A stretch of 64,000 nt of DNA, from NCBI GenBank assembly GCA_027483795.1, contig JAIXTT010000005.1, forward strand, positions 1 to 64,000, in the 5' to 3' direction. This DNA is from Hyphomicrobiales bacterium (GTDB taxonomy: Bacteria > Pseudomonadota > Alphaproteobacteria > Rhizobiales > Beijerinckiaceae). The translations under genes were made by a program, and so were the position numbers. The stretch's first letter is position 1; each line of letters opens with the position of its first letter. Positions 33,751 through 43,000 of this stretch are shown piece after piece. A model generated the notes under the pieces. That model had not been told where the DNA came from and made no database searches. It saw nothing but the letters and a program-made list of their open reading frames with translations.

Positions 33751-34152
33751 ATGTCGCCCCGGACCGCCTCGCCCTCCGTGTTCCGCGTTCCGGCCGGACG
33801 GATCGCCGTCGTCCTCTTCGCCGCGCTCGCCGCGGGCTGTACGCAGTATCAATGGGTACATCCGACGAAGACGCCCGCCCAATACGGCGGCGACCGGCTG
33901 GCCTGCGAAAGCCGGGCGGCCGCGGTCTATCCGACCATGGCCGCCGTCGTCCGCACCGGAGGCGGTTACGTCGACCCCGGCCGGGAGATCTGTTCGCGCG
34001 GCCGGCACGGATACGTCTACTGCCGCTCGACGCCGCCGACCTATATCCCGCCGACCTATTCGACCCGAGACATCAATGCCGAACCGCGTGAACGTCTGAT
34101 CGAGGCCTGCCTCTATCAGCGCGGCTATTCGCTCGTTCCGGTTCAGCGCTGA
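33751..34152 (+). CDS. Small lipoprotein of unknown function
   Basis: A 133-residue protein with a lipoprotein signal: a basic start, the hydrophobic AVVLFAALAAGC ending in a lipobox (L-A-A-G-C, Cys30), then QYQWVHPTKTPAQYGGDRLA. The mature part has cysteines and tyrosine-rich stretches, ends in EACLYQRGYSLVPVQR, and resembles small lipoproteins with a CE-x-x-A...CL-x-x-x-GY motif found in many proteobacteria. Function is unknown. ATG 33751 has AGAAGGAG five bases upstream. The last ten bases overlap the end of the convergent AbrB-family gene. Confidence 0.7.
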   Translation: MSPRTASPSVFRVPAGRIAVVLFAALAAGCTQYQWVHPTKTPAQYGGDRLACESRAAAVYPTMAAVVRTGGGYVDPGREICSRGRHGYVYCRSTPPTYIPPTYSTRDINAEPRERLIEACLYQRGYSLVPVQR

Positions 34153-35204
34153 GGCGGATCCGGCGGCACGCCGAACCATGACGGTCGCGCCCGGAAGATC
34201 AGCGGGACGGTCAGCCCGATCGCCATGAACCGGACGAGGTGGTGCGCCGCCACATAGACCGGGTCGATGGCGAGGGTGAAGGCGAGGATCGCCATCGCCT
34301 CGAGGCCGCCGGGCGCGAAGGCCATCAGCGCCGCCGCCTGCGACACGCCGAGCAGCAGGCTCGCCGCCTCGGCGAAGGCGACCGCCACGATCGTGCTCAC
34401 CACGAAGGCTGCAAGCGCCGCCGGCGCGAGCCGCACCAGATCGCGCCGCCGCATGCTCCTGAATCGTTCGCCGATGAAGGCGCCGATCAGCGTGAAGCCC
34501 AGCGAGGCGAGCGGATCGGGAAAATCCCCCGCCACGATGCCCGACCCCGTGAGGGTCGCGCTCGCCAGCATCGCGCCGAGCAGCAGCGCCGCCGGAACCT
34601 GCAGCCTGTGCAGCAGCAGACCCGCCGGGAGCGCCGCCGCCGCGAGACCGGCGACGGAAGCGAAAGACATCGCCGACGTCGTCGAATCGACGACGGGGAG
34701 GGCGCTTCCGACGGCGATCAGGGGCGGCAGGATCAGAATCAGCATGATCAGGCGGAAGAGCTGAACCGCCGCGATGGCCGGAATGTCGGCCTGCCTTTCA
34801 TGGGCGATGAGCAGGATCGACGACAGCGCGCCCGGAACCGAGGCCAGAACCGCATCGATGCGCTTCCACCCGAAGAACCGCATCAGCACCGCCGAACAGG
34901 CGATCACGATCATGACGATCGCGGCGAAGAGAAGCGCGATGCTCAGAGGGACGGCGGCGAGCGCATGCAGCGTTTCGGGCCTGACGCCCGTTCCGATGGT
35001 GATGCCCGAGAGCAGCATCGCGAAATCGCGGACATGCACGGGCATCGGCGGGAAGCGGTCCGACGCGGCGAGAATGCCGGACACCAGCATCGCCCCGGAG
35101 AGCCACGGGGCGGGAAATCCGATCAGGGCCGCGAGCGCCCCGCCGAGGCCGGCCGCCGCAAGCGCCGCGACATGCAGCGAGATCGTCGTGACCGTCGAAG
35201 ACAT
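34143..35204 (-). CDS. AbrB family membrane protein (putative ammonia monooxygenase-like)
   Basis: A 353-residue membrane protein with about ten hydrophobic segments and an internal duplication: GLGGALAALIGFPAPWLSGA in the first half and LGAMLASATLTGSGIVAGDF in the second. This is the AbrB (PF05145-type) family, once misnamed ammonia monooxygenase; the E. coli member AbrB affects aidB expression. Its biochemical role is unknown; transport is likely. ATG 35204 is chosen because the family begins here; the frame is open further upstream across a FixK-type box and has no family features. The FNR box centre is 28 bases ahead of the ATG. Confidence 0.75.
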   Translation of the reverse strand: MSSTVTTISLHVAALAAAGLGGALAALIGFPAPWLSGAMLVSGILAASDRFPPMPVHVRDFAMLLSGITIGTGVRPETLHALAAVPLSIALLFAAIVMIVIACSAVLMRFFGWKRIDAVLASVPGALSSILLIAHERQADIPAIAAVQLFRLIMLILILPPLIAVGSALPVVDSTTSAMSFASVAGLAAAALPAGLLLHRLQVPAALLLGAMLASATLTGSGIVAGDFPDPLASLGFTLIGAFIGERFRSMRRRDLVRLAPAALAAFVVSTIVAVAFAEAASLLLGVSQAAALMAFAPGGLEAMAILAFTLAIDPVYVAAHHLVRFMAIGLTVPLIFRARPSWFGVPPDPPQR

Positions 35205-35225: not shown

Positions 35226-35239
35226 TTGACCCGGATCAA
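35226..35239. promoter_or_regulatory. FNR/FixK box
   Basis: TTGACCCGGATCAA matches the FNR/FixK consensus TTGAT-N4-ATCAA at nine of ten fixed positions, the only one I found in the window. Its centre (35232.5) is 41.5 bases before position 35274 on the plus strand, the canonical class II distance, and CAAATT (35262-35267) lies where a -10 would be. Toward the AbrB-family gene it sits only 28 bases from the ATG, more suited to repression. Confidence 0.7.
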
Positions 35240-35273
35240 TGCTGTGCGGCTCCGACCGCGTCAAATTGAAATC

Positions 35274-35407
35274 GACGGGACGGTTCGGACCGCCTCCTTC
35301 GCTCCGCCCTCGGGTCGAGCCGGGAAGAGGTCCGCGACGCCCCTTCGGCTTCGGCCGGGGGTGCGGTGCTCGGCGCGGTCTCGGGGGAGCTGCGCCGAGC
35401 ACTTTTT
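35274..35407 (+). ncRNA. Candidate FixK/FNR-controlled small RNA
   Basis: A non-coding stretch of about 134 bases bounded by a class II FNR/FixK box with a weak -10 on the left and an intrinsic terminator on the right. No credible ribosome site or reading frame is present. Three hairpins can form: CGGT/ACCG (35281-35292), a UUCG-capped CGGC-TTCG-GCCG inside CCCC/GGGG (35340-35361), and the terminator (35366-35402). It points toward the fixK-like gene, whose own terminator faces it. The start point is inferred from box spacing. Confidence 0.5.
35366..35407 (+). terminator. Plus-strand intrinsic terminator with no gene upstream
   Basis: An 11-bp perfect stem, GTGCTCGGCGC (35366-35376) with GCGCCGAGCAC (35392-35402), a 15-base loop, then TTTTT (35403-35407). 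No plus-strand gene precedes it, which implies an RNA gene. Confidence 0.8.
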
Positions 35408-35424
35408 CGTTTCGGGATCTCCGC

Positions 35425-35455
35425 GAAAAAAAGCGCCGATCCTTTCGGATCGGCG
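35425..35455 (-). terminator. Intrinsic terminator of the fixK-like gene
   Basis: On the minus strand a 9-bp stem (35447-35455 with 35434-35442) with a four-base loop runs into a T-run (A residues 35425-35432 on the plus strand). It follows the fixK-like stop by 58 bases. Confidence 0.85.
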
Positions 35456-35513
35456 TCAGTCGCAAGAGGAGGAGGAAGCCCGGGAGCTTCCCGCCTCGGG
35501 GAGTTCGAAAGGC

Positions 35514-36236
35514 TCAATGCGCCCCGGTGAGCCGGCAGAGCCGGCAGACGTTCGTGACCGTCACCGCATCGTGCCGGCCGTAGCTCAGAACGCCCTCGCG
35601 CTTCAATTGCGAGAAGGCGCGGCTGACCGTCTCCAAGGTGACGCCGAGATAATCGGCGATCTCCTGGCGGGTCAGGGAGACCGTCACGGCGCTGCGGTCG
35701 GCGGGATCGGCGGGTCCCCGGCAGCCCGCGCCGCCGCGTCCCGGCAGCAGGCGGATGATGAAGGTCGCGACGCGTTCGCGCGCCGTCTTGCGGCCCAGCA
35801 GCATGGCGTGGTCGTGCAGGGCGCAGATCTGGCTCTTCATCCGCTCCGCGATCAGGAGCTGAAGATCACGGTCGGATTCGACGAGCGCCCTTTCATAGGC
35901 GGCGATCCGGCAGGGCGAGAGGGTTTCGGCCGCGCTCTGATGCGTTCCCGTCGTCGTGATGCCGAAGACGTCGCCCGGGCCGAGCAGTTCGATGATCTGC
36001 CGTCGGCCGTCGGGGAGCATTTTGGAGATCATCACCGAACCTTCGACGATCCGGTAGACGCAGCGCGCCTTTTCCGCTTCGTCGATGATCGGCCTGCGGG
36101 CCTCGAAGTCGAGCATCCGTCCGCGGACGCCGTTCTCGACGCTCGCCTTCCGGGACGGTCCGAGGCTCCAATCGGCATCGAATTTCGGCGGAACGCGGTC
36201 TTCCGCGTGGTCGAAACGGCGCGCTTCGAGGGACAT
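35514..36236 (-). CDS. Crp/Fnr family regulator, FixK-like
   Basis: A 240-residue regulator with a cyclic-nucleotide-type beta-barrel (VYRIVEGSVMISKMLPDGRR, ELLGPGDVFGITT) and a C-terminal helix-turn-helix, VSLTRQEIADYLGVTLETVS with RAFSQLKREGVL. The recognition helix E-T-V-S-R is that of FNR/FixK proteins that bind TTGA half-sites. The N-terminus lacks the cysteine cluster of FNR and FnrN, so it fits FixK, a downstream target of FixJ rather than a direct oxygen sensor. Cysteines at 231 and 234 form a C-terminal CxxC. It lies below fixL-fixJ on the same strand. Confidence 0.85.
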   Translation of the reverse strand: MSLEARRFDHAEDRVPPKFDADWSLGPSRKASVENGVRGRMLDFEARRPIIDEAEKARCVYRIVEGSVMISKMLPDGRRQIIELLGPGDVFGITTTGTHQSAAETLSPCRIAAYERALVESDRDLQLLIAERMKSQICALHDHAMLLGRKTARERVATFIIRLLPGRGGAGCRGPADPADRSAVTVSLTRQEIADYLGVTLETVSRAFSQLKREGVLSYGRHDAVTVTNVCRLCRLTGAH

Positions 36237-36392: not shown

Positions 36393-36731
36393 TCAGACGA
36401 TCGCGGCGAACTGTTCGGGGCTCAGCGGCTTGCGCAGCACCGGACAATGTTCGAGGCCGCGCAGTTGGGCGTCGATCGCCGAGCGCGGCTGGCCGCTGAT
36501 CGCGACCACGCGGGGCGGCTCCTTGAGGCGGCTGAGCCAGCGGATGACCCGCGCGCCGCTGATTCCGGGGAGCATCAGATCCACGACGACGAGATCTTCG
36601 GGGCCGGGAATGTCGGCCGCGAAGAACGACTCCGCGTCGGCATGGGCCACCGTCCGGTGCCCCATTCCGCGCAGCAGGACGTCGAGCGAATCGCTCACGC
36701 CGGGATCGTCTTCGAGAATATGGACCGTCAC
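36393..36731 (-). CDS. Stand-alone response-regulator receiver domain
   Basis: A 112-residue CheY-like receiver with no output domain. The acidic pocket is HILEDDPGVSDS, the phosphoacceptor Asp51 is in LVVVDLMLPGISGARVIRWL, the Thr/Ser position is in RVVAISGQPRSA and the Lys in VLRKPLSPEQ. GTG 36731 is chosen with GAGGGC six bases upstream; another GTG 18 bases earlier is possible. It stands 95 bases after fixJ on the same strand. Single receivers near fixLJ can dampen or divert phosphate from FixL or mediate stress responses; which applies here is not known. Confidence 0.78.
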   Translation of the reverse strand: MTVHILEDDPGVSDSLDVLLRGMGHRTVAHADAESFFAADIPGPEDLVVVDLMLPGISGARVIRWLSRLKEPPRVVAISGQPRSAIDAQLRGLEHCPVLRKPLSPEQFAAIV

Positions 36732-36826
36732 GCGGCGCCCTCGGGACACGGATCGCGACCGGCGTCGCGATCCGGTGAACCTATCCTTTCGGAGGGCCGT
36801 GTTCAGTCGGTAGCAATGCGGACTCG

Positions 36827-37435
36827 TCAGGCCCTGCGCTCGGCATAAACGATGCGCACGAGATCCGCCGCGTTCTTCGCTCCGAGCTTCTCCATGATGC
36901 GGGCGCGATGCACCTCGATCGTGCGCGGGCTGATGCCGAGCTGGCGGCCCGCTTCCTTGTTCGATGCACCGAGAGCGATCCGTTCGAGCACCTCGCGTTC
37001 CCGCGGGGTCAGGTTCTCCTCGCCGGGGAAGGCGCCCATGGTCGAATGCGACGCGCCGTTGCGCGCCCGAGCGTCGAGCGCGTCACGGATGCGCCCGACG
37101 ACGGTCTCGGCGTCGAACGGCTTTTCGATGAAGTCGTGCGCCCCGCGCTTGATCGCTTCGACGGCCATGGGAATGTCGCCCTGGCCGGAGATCATGAAGA
37201 TCGGGATCGGGCATTTGGTCCCGAGCTCGTTCAGCACGTCGATGCCCGAGCGCCCGGGCATATGCACGTCGAGAATGATGCAGGAGGGCATGCGCGCCCG
37301 TACCGCATGGAGCAGGGCGGCCCCGTCCGGGTAGGCGCCGACCCCGTAGCCCTCCAGTTCGAGGACCATGCGGAGCGCGTCCCGCACGGCGGGATCGTCG
37401 TCGGCGATGTAGATTTCCGCGTCGTGATCGGCCAT
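36827..37435 (-). CDS. fixJ: Response regulator FixJ
   Basis: A 202-residue two-domain regulator. The receiver has YIADDDPAVRDALRMVLELE, Asp56 in CIILDVHMPGRSGIDVLNEL, ISGQGDIPMAVEAIKRGAHD and FIEKPFDAETV. The LuxR/FixJ DNA-binding domain is LTPREREVLERIALGASNKE with AGRQLGISPRTIEVHRARIM. It starts 13 bases after the fixL stop. Phosphorylated FixJ turns on fixK in the known pathway, and a fixK-like gene lies just downstream here. Confidence 0.93.
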   Translation of the reverse strand: MADHDAEIYIADDDPAVRDALRMVLELEGYGVGAYPDGAALLHAVRARMPSCIILDVHMPGRSGIDVLNELGTKCPIPIFMISGQGDIPMAVEAIKRGAHDFIEKPFDAETVVGRIRDALDARARNGASHSTMGAFPGEENLTPREREVLERIALGASNKEAGRQLGISPRTIEVHRARIMEKLGAKNAADLVRIVYAERRA

Positions 37436-37448
37436 TCGTCCCCCCTCG

Positions 37449-38612
37449 TCAGTCCTCGCCCGTTCGGGCCTCGTCGGTTTCGGCGGGCTGAAGCTTCAGC
37501 GTGAAGCGCGCCCCCCTGCCGTTGCCGCCGGGGTCGACGACGAGATCGCCCCCGTGGCTCTGCGCGATGGTGCGCGAAATCGACAGGCCGAGGCCCATGC
37601 CGGTCTTCTTCGACGTGGCGAAGGCCTTGAAGAGATCGGGCAGGGCTTCCGGCGGAATGCCCGGCCCGTTGTCGGAGACGATCACGGCGGGCCCGTCGTC
37701 CAGCGCCGTCGTCTCGATCCGCACCTCGCCGTCGGGTCGCCCGCGCAGCGCTTCCGCGGCGTTGCGCAGCAGATTGACCACGACCTGCTGGATCTGCACG
37801 GGCTCGGCGAAGGCCGGCGGCAGGTCGCGCGAATAGATGCGGACCACGCGGACCTTGTCGCGCATGCCCAACAGCGTGAGTTCGACCGCCTCGTCGATCA
37901 CGGCATTGAGGTCGACGCCGCGGCGGTTGGGTTCGCGCTTCTCCACGAACTGCCGCATCCGGCTGATGATCGCGCCCGCGCGATCGGCTTCGTGCACGGC
38001 CTTTTCCATCACCGAGATCAGGGCGTCGTCGGTGCGGGCGTCGCGCCCCTTCCGAATGGTCCGCGTGCCCGCCTGCAGATAGAGCATGATGGCCGTGAGA
38101 GGCTGATTGAGTTCATGGGCCAGCGCCGCGCCCATTTCGTCGATCGCCGAGACCCGCGCGATATGCACGAGATCGGCCTGAAGCTCGCGGACCCGCTGCT
38201 CGGCCTCCTTGCGCGGGCGAAGATCGCGGATGATCCCGATGAATTGGCGCCCCTGCGGAATGCGGGCCTCGCCGACCGAAAGCTCCACCGGGAACTCCGT
38301 CCCGTCCTTATGGCGGGCATGGACCTCGCGACCGATCCCGATGATCTTGCGCTCGCCCGTATCCATGTAGTTCGAGACGTAGGAATCATGCGCGCGGCCG
38401 TAGGCCATGGGCATGATCAGCTTCACGTTCCGGCCGATCGCCTCCTCCGCGGTCCAGCCGAAAAGGCGTTCGCAGGCGATGTTGTAGACGAGGATCCGAG
38501 CTTCCTCGTCGATCACGAGGATCCCGTCGACGGCCGTGTCGAGAAAGCTGATCAGCCGCGCTTCGGATTCGGACTCCGCCGTCGCTCTCGAAACGTCCGT
38601 CTGCAGGGACAT
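37449..38612 (-). CDS. fixL: Oxygen-sensing histidine kinase FixL
   Basis: A 387-residue soluble kinase. The PAS domain (about 18-135) has the heme pocket of FixL: proximal His75 in GRAHDSYVSNY and the regulatory Arg95 in KIIGIGREV, matching His200 and Arg220 of Bradyrhizobium FixL. HisKA has the phosphoacceptor His166 in GAALAHELNQPLTAIMLYLQ, followed by the ATPase with VNLLRNAAEALRG, VSDNGPGIPPEALPDLFKAF and TGMGLGLSISRTIAQSHGG. ATG 38612 is used. No membrane segments are seen, as in BjFixL. It heads the fixL-fixJ operon. Confidence 0.93.
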   Translation of the reverse strand: MSLQTDVSRATAESESEARLISFLDTAVDGILVIDEEARILVYNIACERLFGWTAEEAIGRNVKLIMPMAYGRAHDSYVSNYMDTGERKIIGIGREVHARHKDGTEFPVELSVGEARIPQGRQFIGIIRDLRPRKEAEQRVRELQADLVHIARVSAIDEMGAALAHELNQPLTAIMLYLQAGTRTIRKGRDARTDDALISVMEKAVHEADRAGAIISRMRQFVEKREPNRRGVDLNAVIDEAVELTLLGMRDKVRVVRIYSRDLPPAFAEPVQIQQVVVNLLRNAAEALRGRPDGEVRIETTALDDGPAVIVSDNGPGIPPEALPDLFKAFATSKKTGMGLGLSISRTIAQSHGGDLVVDPGGNGRGARFTLKLQPAETDEARTGED

Positions 38613-38686
38613 GTCGTCGGTATCCGTAAAGGAACGTATGTCGAATGTGCCCGACCCGAGGGTTGACCGCAATCCTGTACCAAAGT

Positions 38687-39871
38687 TCAGCTTCGCCGTA
38701 TGACCTCCGCCAGACGGCGGGTCGCTTCCTGCAAGTCTTCGGCTTTTCTGAGAAAACACAATCTGAGGTGGTTTTCGGCTCCGCGCCCGAAGGCCGTGCC
38801 CGGTGCGAGCCCGACGACCGCCTCGTCGATGAAGCGCATCGCGAGCGCCCGCGTGTCGGTCACGCCGTCCACGGAGAAGAAGAGGTAGAACGCTCCTTCC
38901 GGCATGGGGAAGCGGACGCGTCCCGTGGCGGCGAGCCCTTCGCAGACGATGGCGCGGCCGCGTTCGGCGCGTTCGATCTGCTGCCTGACGAAGTCTTCGC
39001 CCCCGTCGAGCGCCGCGACGCCCGCGCGCTGAAGGAAGGCCGCGACGCCGGAGGAGGAGTACTGCACGAGGCTCTCGATCGTTTCGCCGAGCGCCGGGGG
39101 GGCTTCGAGCCAGCCGAGACGCCAGCCCGTCATGGCCCAGTTCTTCGAGAAGGTCTGAACGAAGAAGATCCGGTCGTCCTCGTCCATCACGTCATGGAAG
39201 GAGGGGGCTCGGGCGGAGCCGTCGAAGACGAAGCGGCCGTAGATCTCGTCGGCGATGATCCAGAGGCCGTGCTTGCGCGCGAGCGCGAGCACCGCGACCA
39301 ATTCCTCCCGCGTGGCGGTCCAGCCCGTCGGATTGGCGGGGGAATTGATCATGATCGCCCTGCTGCGCGGCGTCACGGCCGCGGCGAGGGCGTCGACGTC
39401 GAGCGACCGGCGGCCGTTGCCCTGATCCGAGGTGAGCGCGAGGGGCACTTCGACGGGCTTCGCGCCCGCGACCACGGCCGCGCCGACGAAATTCGGCCAA
39501 GCGGGCGAGGGGATCAGCACCTCGTCGCCGTTCCCCGCCGCGATGCGCACGGCGATCTGGATCGCCTGCATCCCGCCGATGGTGACGAAGAACCGCTCCG
39601 GTCCGAGGGGCTTGTCGTAGAGGCGGCACATATAGCGGGAGATCGCGTCGCGCAGTTCCGGAATGCCGCGCTGCCAGGTGTAGAAGGTCTCGCCCGCCGC
39701 CAGCGCGCTCGCCGCCGCGTCCATGATGAAGGAGGGCGTCGGCAGGTCGCCTTCGCCCACCCAGAGCGGGATCAGGCCCGGCCGCCCGCGACCGTAATTG
39801 GACACTTCGACGATGCCGCTGGGCGGCGCGCCGGCGGCTTCGGGGCGGATGGTCGGAACGGGATGGTGCAT
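38687..39871 (-). CDS. Class I PLP-dependent aminotransferase
   Basis: A 394-residue aspartate-aminotransferase-fold enzyme. PLP-site motifs are IPLWVGEGDLPTPSFI at the N-terminus, TIGGMQAIQIAVRIAAGNGD, INSPANPTGWTATREEL, IIADEIYGRFVFDG and the Schiff-base Lys in FVQTFSKNWAMTGWRLGWLE, with the substrate Arg in HLRLCFLRKAEDL. The exact substrate cannot be read; aspartate, aromatic and alanine transaminases share this fold. It is transcribed away from the hybrid kinase and ends 74 bases before the fixL start. Confidence 0.88.
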   Translation of the reverse strand: MHHPVPTIRPEAAGAPPSGIVEVSNYGRGRPGLIPLWVGEGDLPTPSFIMDAAASALAAGETFYTWQRGIPELRDAISRYMCRLYDKPLGPERFFVTIGGMQAIQIAVRIAAGNGDEVLIPSPAWPNFVGAAVVAGAKPVEVPLALTSDQGNGRRSLDVDALAAAVTPRSRAIMINSPANPTGWTATREELVAVLALARKHGLWIIADEIYGRFVFDGSARAPSFHDVMDEDDRIFFVQTFSKNWAMTGWRLGWLEAPPALGETIESLVQYSSSGVAAFLQRAGVAALDGGEDFVRQQIERAERGRAIVCEGLAATGRVRFPMPEGAFYLFFSVDGVTDTRALAMRFIDEAVVGLAPGTAFGRGAENHLRLCFLRKAEDLQEATRRLAEVIRRS

Positions 39872-40061: not shown

Positions 40062-43000
40062 ATGATGGCGGGCTGGACGGTCGTTCTCGCGGCGCTGTTC
40101 TATCTGTGCCTGCTTTTCGCCGTCGCGCATTACGGCGACACGTCCGGCAAGAAGCTGATGCAGGGCCGGGCGCGCGCCACGATCTACGCCCTCACCCTCG
40201 CCGTCTACTGCACGTCCTGGACCTTCTACGGCTCGGTCGGTCTGGCCTCGGTCTCGGGGCTCGACTTCTTCGCCATCTATATGGGTCCGATCCTCGTCTT
40301 CACCTTCGGCGTCGATCTCGTCCGACGCATCGTGCGGCTCGCCAAGTCGCAGAACATCACCTCGATCGCCGACTTCGTGGCCGCCCGCTACGGCAAGAAC
40401 GAGCGCGTGGCCATGATCGTCTGCCTGATCGCGGTGATCGGCTCGGTGCCCTACATCGCGCTGCAACTCAAGGCGATCTCGACCTCGCTGACGACGGTGC
40501 TCGACGCCTTCGAGCCCGGATCGGTCGCTCATGCGTCCCCGATCTTCGGCGACCTCGCGCTTCTCGTCGCGCTGATCCTCGCGGGTTTCGCCACGGCCTT
40601 CGGCACGCGCCACATCGACGCGACCGAACATCAGGACGGCCTGATGCTCGCGGTGGCCGCCGAGTCCGTGGTCAAGCTGGTGGCCTTCCTCGCGGTCGGC
40701 GTCTTCGTGGTCTTCGTGATGTTCGAAGGGCCCGGGGATCTCGTCGCCCGCGCCATGGAACGTTCCGACTTCGTCGCGCCGCCGGACCGCAGCTCGGGGC
40801 CCCTCAACGTCCTGACGATGATGCTGCTCTCCGCCTCCGTGATCCTGCTGCTGCCGCGGCAGTTCCACGTGACCGTGGTCGAGAACCGCGACGAGGCCGA
40901 CGTTTCGCGGGCGGCGAAGATGTTCCCGGCCTATCTGATCCTCATCAACCTCTTCGTGGTGCCGCTCGCGATCGCGGCGGACGTGGTGTTTCCGCGAGGC
41001 AGCATCTCGCCGGACATGGCGGTGATCGAGCTTCCGCTTCGGGCCGGCCAGCATGCTCTGGCGCTGATGGTGTTCATCGGCGGGCTTTCGGCGGCGACGG
41101 CGATGGTGATCGTGGCCTGCGTCGCGCTCGCCATCATGGTGTCCAACGATCTCGTCGTTCCGGTCCTGCTGCGCCGGCGCGGACAGACGGCGGCCGACAT
41201 GGGCACGCTGGTCCTCATGATCCGCCGTGCGGCGATCGTCGTCATGATCCTGCTCGGCTATTTCTATTATCGGAACACGTCCGACGCCGCACTGGCGGCG
41301 ATCGGCCTGACCTCCTTCGCCGCCATCGCACAGATCGCGCCCGCCTTTTTCGGCGGGCTGTTCTGGCGTCGCGCCAATGCGCGGGGGGCGACCGCGGGCC
41401 TCCTCGTCGGCTTCGCCGTCTGGGCCTATACGCTGTTTCTTCCGAATCTCGCGGCGCCCGCCGCCGTCGGGCTCCGGGATCTTCTGACCTACGGCCCGTT
41501 CGGCATCGAGGCGCTGAGGCCCACGGCTCTGTTCGGCTTCGACGTCTCGCCGATCGCCAACGGCACCTTGTGGAGCCTCGCGCTCAATCTCGCGGCCTTC
41601 GTGATCTTTTCCTCGAGCCGCGCGTCCTCGCCCCTCGAAAGGCTGCAGGCGAGCGTCTTCGTGTCGCCCGACCGGCCCGTCATGGCGCAGGCCTTCCGCT
41701 TCTGGCGGACGTCCGTGACGGTCGAAGAGCTTCAGACCTGCGTCGCCCGTTATCTGGGGGAGGCGCGGACCCGCGCCGCCTTCGGCGAATTCATGCAGCG
41801 GCGGGGCCGGCCCGAGGAACCGGGGCGCGAAGCCGACATCCATCTCCTGCGCTTCGCCGAGCATCAGCTCGCCTCGGCCATCGGCGCGTCCTCGTCGCGG
41901 CTGGTACTGTCGCTGCTGCTGCGCCGCCGCAACGTGACCAAGGCCGCGGCGCTCCGACTGCTCGACGACGCTTCCGCCGCGATCCAATACAATCGCGACC
42001 TTCTCCAACACGCGCTCGACCATGTCCGGCAGGGCATCACGGTGTTCGACGGGAATCTGCGCCTCGTGAGTTGGAACCGCGCCTTCGAGGAGCTGTTCGA
42101 TCTGCCGCCGGATCTCGCCCGGGTCGGCGTCGGCCTCGACGAGATCATTCTCTTCAATGCCGGGCGCGGCATGTACGGAGCGGGCTCGGCCGACGATTTC
42201 ATCGCGGCGCGGCTCGAAAGCTTCGTCAACGACTCCGAACCCGTGCGCGTGAAGCTGCACTCCTCCGGCAAGGTGCTCGACATCCGCTCGGCGCACATGC
42301 CCGACGGCGGGATCGTGACGACCTATACGGACATCACCGCGACCGTCGAAGCCGAGGAGGCGCTCGAAAGGGCGAACGAGACGCTCGAACGGCGCGTCCG
42401 CGAGCGCACGGAGGAATTGACCCGCCTCAACGAAGAACTCGGCCGCGCCAAGGCCGAGGCGGATGAGGCGAACACGTCCAAGACCCGCTTCCTCGCCGCC
42501 GCGAGCCACGACATCCTTCAGCCGCTCAACGCGGCGCGGCTCTATGCGACGTCGCTGCTCGAACGCGATCACGCCGCGGGCGAGCCGCGCCTCGCGGAGA
42601 ACGTCGACGCCTCCCTCGAAGCGGTCGAAGAGATCCTCACGGCGCTGCTCGACATCTCCCGTCTGGACGCGGGCGCGATGAAGCCCGAGCTCTCCAATTT
42701 CCGCATCGACGAGATCCTCAACCAGCTCCGCCTCGAATTCGAGCCGATGGCGAAGGAGAAGGGCATCGATCTCGTCTTCGTGCCGTCGTCGCTCGCGGTG
42801 CGGTCGGACCGTCGTCTGCTGCGCCGTCTGCTGCAGAACCTCGTCTCCAACGCGATCAAATACACGCCGCGCGGCCGCGTTCTGGTCGGGTGTCGACGGC
42901 TGAAGGGCAAGCTCCGCATCGAGGTCCGCGACACGGGGCTCGGCATCCCGCCCTCCAAGCAGAAGGCCGTGTTCAAGGAGTTCCAGCGCCTCGACCAGGG

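Follow-up and report, generated by a model that had tools for sequence, protein, structure and literature searches.

A probable FixK-activated small RNA gene with an invariant terminator tip in a family of Hyphomicrobiales

To our knowledge, what has been mapped of FixK/FNR regulons consists mostly of protein-coding genes. In the stretch of 64,000 nucleotides analysed here (the window), which is part of contig C23 of a 2.85-Mb assembly (91% complete) of a Hyphomicrobiales bacterium, a FixK/FNR-type box lies in the gap between an abrB-family gene and a fixK-like gene, with response regulator, FixJ-like and FixL-like genes farther on. What does this box control? A preliminary description of the window had proposed a small RNA gene, and we examined this proposal by comparison with related genomes. 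The neighbouring genes are as follows.

34143..35204, minus strand: AbrB-family membrane protein gene (PF05145, TIGR03082), with its start codon 21 nt from the box
35514..36236, minus strand: FixK-like Crp/Fnr regulator gene (Pfam cNMP_binding and HTH_Crp_2)
36393..36749, minus strand: single-domain response regulator gene beside fixK (PF00072)
36827..37435, minus strand: FixJ-like response regulator gene (Response_reg and GerE; top NCBIfam model FixJ, under its cut-off)
37449..38759, minus strand: FixL-like histidine kinase gene (PAS, HisKA and HATPase_c; top NCBIfam model FixL, under its cut-off)

The top PDB match of the FixK-like protein was FixK2 (4i2o, E 7.3e-29), and the alignment places ETVSRA in the helix-turn-helix of both proteins, so that the protein of the window has a FixK-type recognition helix. 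A helix of this kind reads TTGA. The elements predicted in the gap are listed below.

35226..35239, plus strand: FixK/FNR box TTGACCCGGATCAA, found as TTG[AC]N6TCAA ahead of the hairpin tip in 33 of 33 loci
35262..35267, plus strand: -10-like element CAAATT, 22 nt past the box
35274..35407, plus strand: predicted small RNA, the start placed at the box centre plus 41.5 and the end at the T run
35366..35407, plus strand: conserved terminal hairpin with T5, a probable intrinsic terminator (28 aligned copies, covariation)
35380..35389, plus strand: hairpin tip CTCGGGGGAG (CUC-GGGG-GAG), identical in 33 loci
35434..35455, minus strand: facing terminator of the fixK-like gene, listed by the terminator scan

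In class II FNR-type promoters the box is centred 41.5 bp upstream of the start. The box of the window is centred at 35232.5, which places the start at 35274 and CAAATT at -12 to -7. The near-perfect box, its class II spacing and the hexamer in the -10 window had all been pointed out in the preliminary description; letters, coordinates and arithmetic were correct, and all 33 tip-bearing loci have the box followed by a hexamer. The offset between the two is constant despite the varying distance between box and tip (91-174 nt, counted from the first base of the box). A occupies position 2 of the hexamer in 28 of the 33 loci, and T occupies position 6 in 23; the hexamer reads TATAAA, TATAAG or TATGAG in four loci with a changed hairpin stem (L132, L133, L135, L136) and is weaker in Salinarimonas-type and L065-type loci. 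The comparison thus shows a FixK-type promoter architecture and supports a putative FixK site.

By frequency in the window, the loose box TTGMN6KCAA is unremarkable (three found, 1.44 expected, and as many in 21 of 100 shuffles). The strict palindrome TTGAYN4RTCAA is found at five places in the 2.85-Mb assembly, one of them being the box under study, against none for the reversed control. Another of these strict boxes lies upstream of ccoN (TIGR00780, E 2.6e-41, called on a 200-aa fragment), a classic FixK target, with its first base 143 nt ahead of the start codon. Strict boxes were also seen 22 nt before the possible start of a DUF2460 gene (L201, G000:C40:82035-82048), which we take to be phage- or gene-transfer-agent-like, and between a class-V aminotransferase gene, presumably cysteine desulphurase-like, and a hydrolase gene (L203, G000:C88:21799-21812), where the palindrome CTTAGAATTATTCTAAG adjoins. 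Within the window, a further box-like sequence, TTGACCCGCCTCAA, lies at 42417-42430.

At the other end of the predicted RNA, an 11-bp stem, GTGCTCGGCGC/GCGCCGAGCAC, is followed by TTTTT and ends at 35407, just as the intrinsic terminator had been described before, and the predicted fold extends the stem inward to a GGGG loop. This terminator is absent from the terminator scan, which accepts loops of up to 8 nt, because the loop enclosed by its 11-bp stem is longer. The facing terminator proposed for fixK is in the scan, at 35455-35434 on the minus strand. Judged by its sequence, the intergenic region of the window holds a putative promoter and a probable Rho-independent terminator of its own. 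Three hairpins make up the fold of the predicted RNA (35274-35407), and one of them has its C(UUCG)G loop at 35349-35354. The fold of 35274-35412 has a z-score of -3.47, with one of 200 shuffles folding as well. The three hairpins noticed earlier, including the UUCG-capped one, are thus all present in the predicted fold, but the UUCG hairpin is not what the relatives keep. Conservation of the box and hairpins in relatives had been named as the test of the proposal: the box, the -10 region and the terminal hairpin with its tip are kept, whereas the RNA 5' of that hairpin varies in length and sequence between genera, and so do the 5' hairpins. In some relatives the T run after the hairpin is poor. 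We infer a predicted RNA of about 134 nt in the window and of about 73-156 nt in the relatives.

The 3' region of fixK (35434-35500, minus strand) gave sub-threshold Rfam matches to suhB/mmgR and ar14. In the window and in both congeners, a CUCCUCC stretch precedes the fixK terminator there. This region is possibly the source of a 3'-UTR-derived RNA.

A DNA search of 60 relatives detected the terminal hairpin in the two congeners and in two other genera (the weakest being G011, E 0.007). These copies all adjoin abrB and have a FixK box with GTCAA 20 nt after it. A hairpin covariance model built from five loci, the E-values of which are rough, then matched 29 of 298 genomes of the GTDB family at E <= 0.01. 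Four of the 30 matches (L055, L056, L058, L059) had neither tip, nearby box, abrB nor fixK and were dropped as chance, which left 25 model-found genomes, one of them (G147) with two copies. A pattern scan of public genomes, one per species, gave 38 matches. Thirteen of these came from unrelated bacteria (Gordonia, Streptomyces and others), had neither the box nor the abrB/fixK context and were rejected, while 25 had the box together with abrB or fixK nearby. The pattern scan is not independent of the family search, since 22 of its 25 true matches lie on contigs equal in length to those of loci found there; the three further ones are L065, L083 and L101. In total, the element was found at 33 loci in 32 genomes, 29 of the family of the window and three further Hyphomicrobiales metagenome-assembled genomes. 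The carriers include strains of Salinarimonas rosea, S. ramus, Alsobacter soli and A. metallidurans; Salinarimonas, Alsobacter and the window belong to one GTDB family, and NCBI lists separate Salinarimonadaceae and Alsobacteraceae.

When the 298 family genomes were searched with the FixK protein instead, 28 had an orthologue at E <= 1e-35, a cut of our own choice, the next genome being G024 at 1.5e-32. All 28 carry the element: 24 were found by the hairpin model and four (G231, G252, G243, G179) by inspection beside fixK, where a changed stem bears the same tip. G024 gave no match by the hairpin model and has no tip in its fixK neighbourhood. The other 270 family genomes, searched only with the hairpin model, which had missed the four changed forms, gave a single match (G107), and this copy adjoins a diverged fixK-like gene. 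The comparison of genomes thus shows a linkage to FixK, which may partly reflect shared descent because the genomes are related. fixK adjoins the element in 27 of the 33 loci; in G013 and G021 it lies far away, elsewhere on the contig. Five fixK homologues from further families of this order (L111-L115) had no tip beside them on the strand where it would be expected. Outside the family, four matches in 397 genomes of the order and one in 385 genomes of the class included none with both tip and box; one locus (L062) has the tip, without the box or the context. For each genome these wider scans score only 16 first-look candidates and may therefore overlook distant members.

The terminal hairpin is conserved as a structure with covariation. 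In an alignment of 28 of 29 loci (L057 fell below the alignment cut; 23 copies are distinct), 98.1% of the cells were paired, against 34.0-52.7% when the partners were slid, a figure favoured by the fact that the alignment was fitted to the structure and that the rows are related. Changes on both sides were seen at ten of the 16 stem pairs, which was reached by four of 500 shuffles. No shuffle reached the 55 cells with double changes or the covariation score of 0.492. The number of further pair types was not beyond the shuffles (21 versus 19.4; 107 of 500). Five pairs are invariant, including the three apical ones, and the four further copies with a changed stem retain the same tip. In the FixK-bearing genomes of the family, the tip was seen in 24 by way of a model that tolerates changes and in four only by way of fixK. 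These 28 genomes, having been selected by FixK and not by the hairpin, are the least biased evidence that the tip is fixed. As the sole part common to all copies, the tip should be the working part of the RNA.

From these data we propose the following course of events. FixK, made by the neighbouring gene or, in some relatives, by a distant one, would bind the box and activate the class II promoter. Transcription would start near 35274 and stop at the hairpin ending at 35407, yielding an RNA of about 134 nt. The acting part of this RNA would be the invariant tip of its last hairpin, which most likely pairs in trans with all or part of a C-rich sequence, CUCCCCCGAG, in other RNAs; the FixK regulon would thereby gain a post-transcriptional arm. 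Transcription, activation by FixK and action in trans are what we infer from the comparison. Taken as a whole, a stand-alone gene for a FixK-activated, trans-acting small RNA of this kind is the reading that we hold with good, though not full, confidence. As to its last step, pairing of the tip with C-rich RNA is our simplest guess, and binding of a protein is the main rival.

The exact complement of the tip occurs at 107 sites in eight genomes, against 60 for the reversed control, and eight of the 107 are the RNA gene itself. By genome, the counts of complement and control are 14 and 11 (G000), 10 and 9 (G002), 20 and 13 (G011), 6 and 2 (G013), 38 and 15 (G021), 2 and 1 (G030), 12 and 3 (G035), and 5 and 6 (G107), so that the excess comes mostly from G021 and G035. 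We compared 60 stretches covering 61 of the 99 other sites (all except 37 in G021 and one in G011), using open frames of at least 90 aa. Among these 61 sites in eight genomes, the complement never recurs, in mRNA sense, at an equivalent position of a compared gene in a second genome. The site in an ABC-transporter-like gene does keep its position between two genomes (L152, L196), but it lies on the non-coding strand and was rejected. Sites near fixH in three genomes (L143, L163, L172) differ in place and strand and were taken as coincidence. At the start of fixH/ccoH, CTCCCCCG, which is complementary to the tip, directly follows the start codon (codons 2-5) in six of 24 loci (L204-L209); they comprise every matched locus of genera g20 and g34, and PF05751 identified the L172 copy. 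In the other 18 loci CTCCCCCG is absent within the 90 nt shown. Of 60 shuffles each, 5, 21, 9, 20, 28 and 11 reached or beat the duplex energies of the six, and for two of the six the most favourable duplex forms at another position.

That no conserved complementary target was found among the sites examined would fit an RNA that binds a protein through its CUC-GGGG-GAG tip, by titration or as a scaffold, instead of pairing with other RNAs. Both sides of the apical CUC/GAG pairing are invariant, and the fold prediction also has the tip paired, which would suit such a protein site. We know of no protein or motif that binds such a tip. Equal invariance is expected, however, of a pairing seed with several targets, and the excess of exact complements over the reversed control, mostly from G021 and G035, also speaks for pairing. 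We therefore regard protein binding as possible and somewhat unlikely. It is also conceivable that the G-rich tip, by resembling a Shine-Dalgarno sequence, captures RNAs rich in C and U (anti-SD), for example stretches at the fixK 3' end: GGGGGAG can pair with CUUCCUC, and CUCCUCC is at hand 3' of fixK in the window and the two congeners. This mimicry is unlikely, since the predicted duplex between the tip and this part of fixK was no better than that of shuffles in 27 loci, where 6 to 95 of 100 shuffles did as well.

The alternative that the box serves abrB, by activation or repression, and that the hairpin is merely a terminator or a leader element of abrB without any small RNA, draws on the palindromic form of the box, the short distance of 21 nt to the abrB start in the window and the presence of abrB beside the element in 26 of the 33 loci. 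In the other seven (L048, L053, L057, L132, L133, L135, L136), no abrB match is found in the 1,150-1,424 bases before the box, and the box, hexamer and hairpin are nevertheless kept; three of them (L048, L053, L057) have a homologue of the 33727-34152 gene of the window in place of abrB. The box is thus not just that of abrB, and regulation of abrB was rejected as the whole story. Moreover, minus-strand transcription from a class II promoter would begin at 35191, within the abrB gene as called, the -10-like hexamer is on the plus-strand side, and a plain terminator needs no fixed tip. Taken together, these points leave an abrB-only function distinctly improbable.

The preliminary description had seen no credible frame in the 130 bases after the promoter. 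Open reading frames do cross the region (for example 35239-35583, plus strand), but those of the predicted transcripts of 31 relatives disagree among themselves. A short protein encoded across the hairpin is highly improbable. A frame with S-G-E at the tip is open in many of the 31 loci listed, but none of 33 loci has a synonymous substitution within the nine bases TCGGGGGAG, and the stem covaries in the manner of an RNA. The loci also disagree in the start codon, the length of the frame and the residues farther downstream, and the frame was rejected. In L034 and L035 (genus g12), the ATG of a frame that at a first look resembles a secreted binding protein lies 16 nt past the T run on the same strand, and the RNA could therefore also be a leader in this genus.

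The signal to which the proposed FixK-activated RNA would respond was considered from the neighbouring FixL-like kinase. Its PAS domain aligns with the haem PAS domain of FixL (1dp6, E 9.4e-30). Where 1dp6 reads DPHIIGIGR the window reads ERKIIGIGR, with Lys in place of His, and K or R occupies this position in six of six further aligned loci (L078, L087, L070, L065, L083, L101). This His is presumably the haem ligand of 1dp6. If so, oxygen sensing by the FixL-like kinase through haem is doubtful, and low oxygen as the signal is uncertain.

Is the RNA already known? Neither the window nor the loci of 13 relatives matched any Rfam 15 family, FnrS included, at gathering score. Of five sub-threshold matches, four were on the minus strand and the single plus-strand one scored 15.6 against a cut-off of 380, and all were rejected. 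The candidate resembles class II FNR/FixK2-dependent promoters such as those of ccoN/fixN in having its box centred 41.5 bp upstream of the start, and differs from them in that its product is apparently a non-coding RNA. Rhodobacter sphaeroides, the host of the small RNA PcrZ, belongs to another order. According to passages of PMC8139620 and PMC4263372, PcrZ is induced at low oxygen with input from PrrA and FnrL, and an incoherent feed-forward loop has been proposed; a table in PMC8139620 gives its regulators as 'PrrA, FnrL (indirect?)'. PcrZ is thus an alphaproteobacterial small RNA with FnrL input, which we set beside the candidate by description and not by sequence. Also in R. sphaeroides, FnrL ChIP-seq sites lie in the putative promoter regions of RSs0019 (Pos19) and RSs2461, as stated in part of PMC4263372, and Pos19 is described in PMC5036791 as a small coding RNA of the RpoE regulon; these two have a site for an FNR-type regulator at a putative small RNA promoter, as is predicted for the candidate, and were likened to it by description, not by sequence or locus. 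The placing of FNR-controlled small RNAs in enterobacteria and pseudomonads in the preliminary description was hence too narrow: PcrZ, RSs0019 and RSs2461 are alphaproteobacterial cases already reported in the passages cited. In E. coli, FnrS is activated by FNR and represses more than 30 mRNAs upon pulse overproduction (PMC8139620, in part). The candidate is predicted to be, like FnrS, a small RNA under an FNR-type regulator, but it belongs to another lineage and regulator branch and lacks an Rfam match. A literature search with few subscription journals within its reach found no FixK-controlled small RNA of these bacteria, nor is one of this group named in the FixK passages of PMC5082802, PMC5596092, PMC7143759 and PMC4842269. 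Since PcrZ, RSs0019 and RSs2461 have been reported, what is new is the family and not the FNR-type control, and the family is set apart from the known RNAs by description and Rfam only.

In this group of bacteria from soil and water, the candidate thus looks like a real, undescribed small RNA gene that is probably switched on by FixK. Its carriers include strains of named species, which makes direct tests possible, and a fixed tip on a changing stem lends itself well to asking what the loop of a terminator is able to recognise. With such an RNA in all sampled family genomes that have this FixK orthologue, riboregulation would be central to FixK control in this part of the Hyphomicrobiales. We tentatively suggest, as an idea that may well prove wrong, that the RNAs form a FixK-bound riboregulator family, kept wherever the FixK orthologue is kept, in which the tip on the covarying terminator stem meets one ancient partner, either RNA or protein. 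If this is true, every FixK response in the clade would have a built-in post-transcriptional arm.
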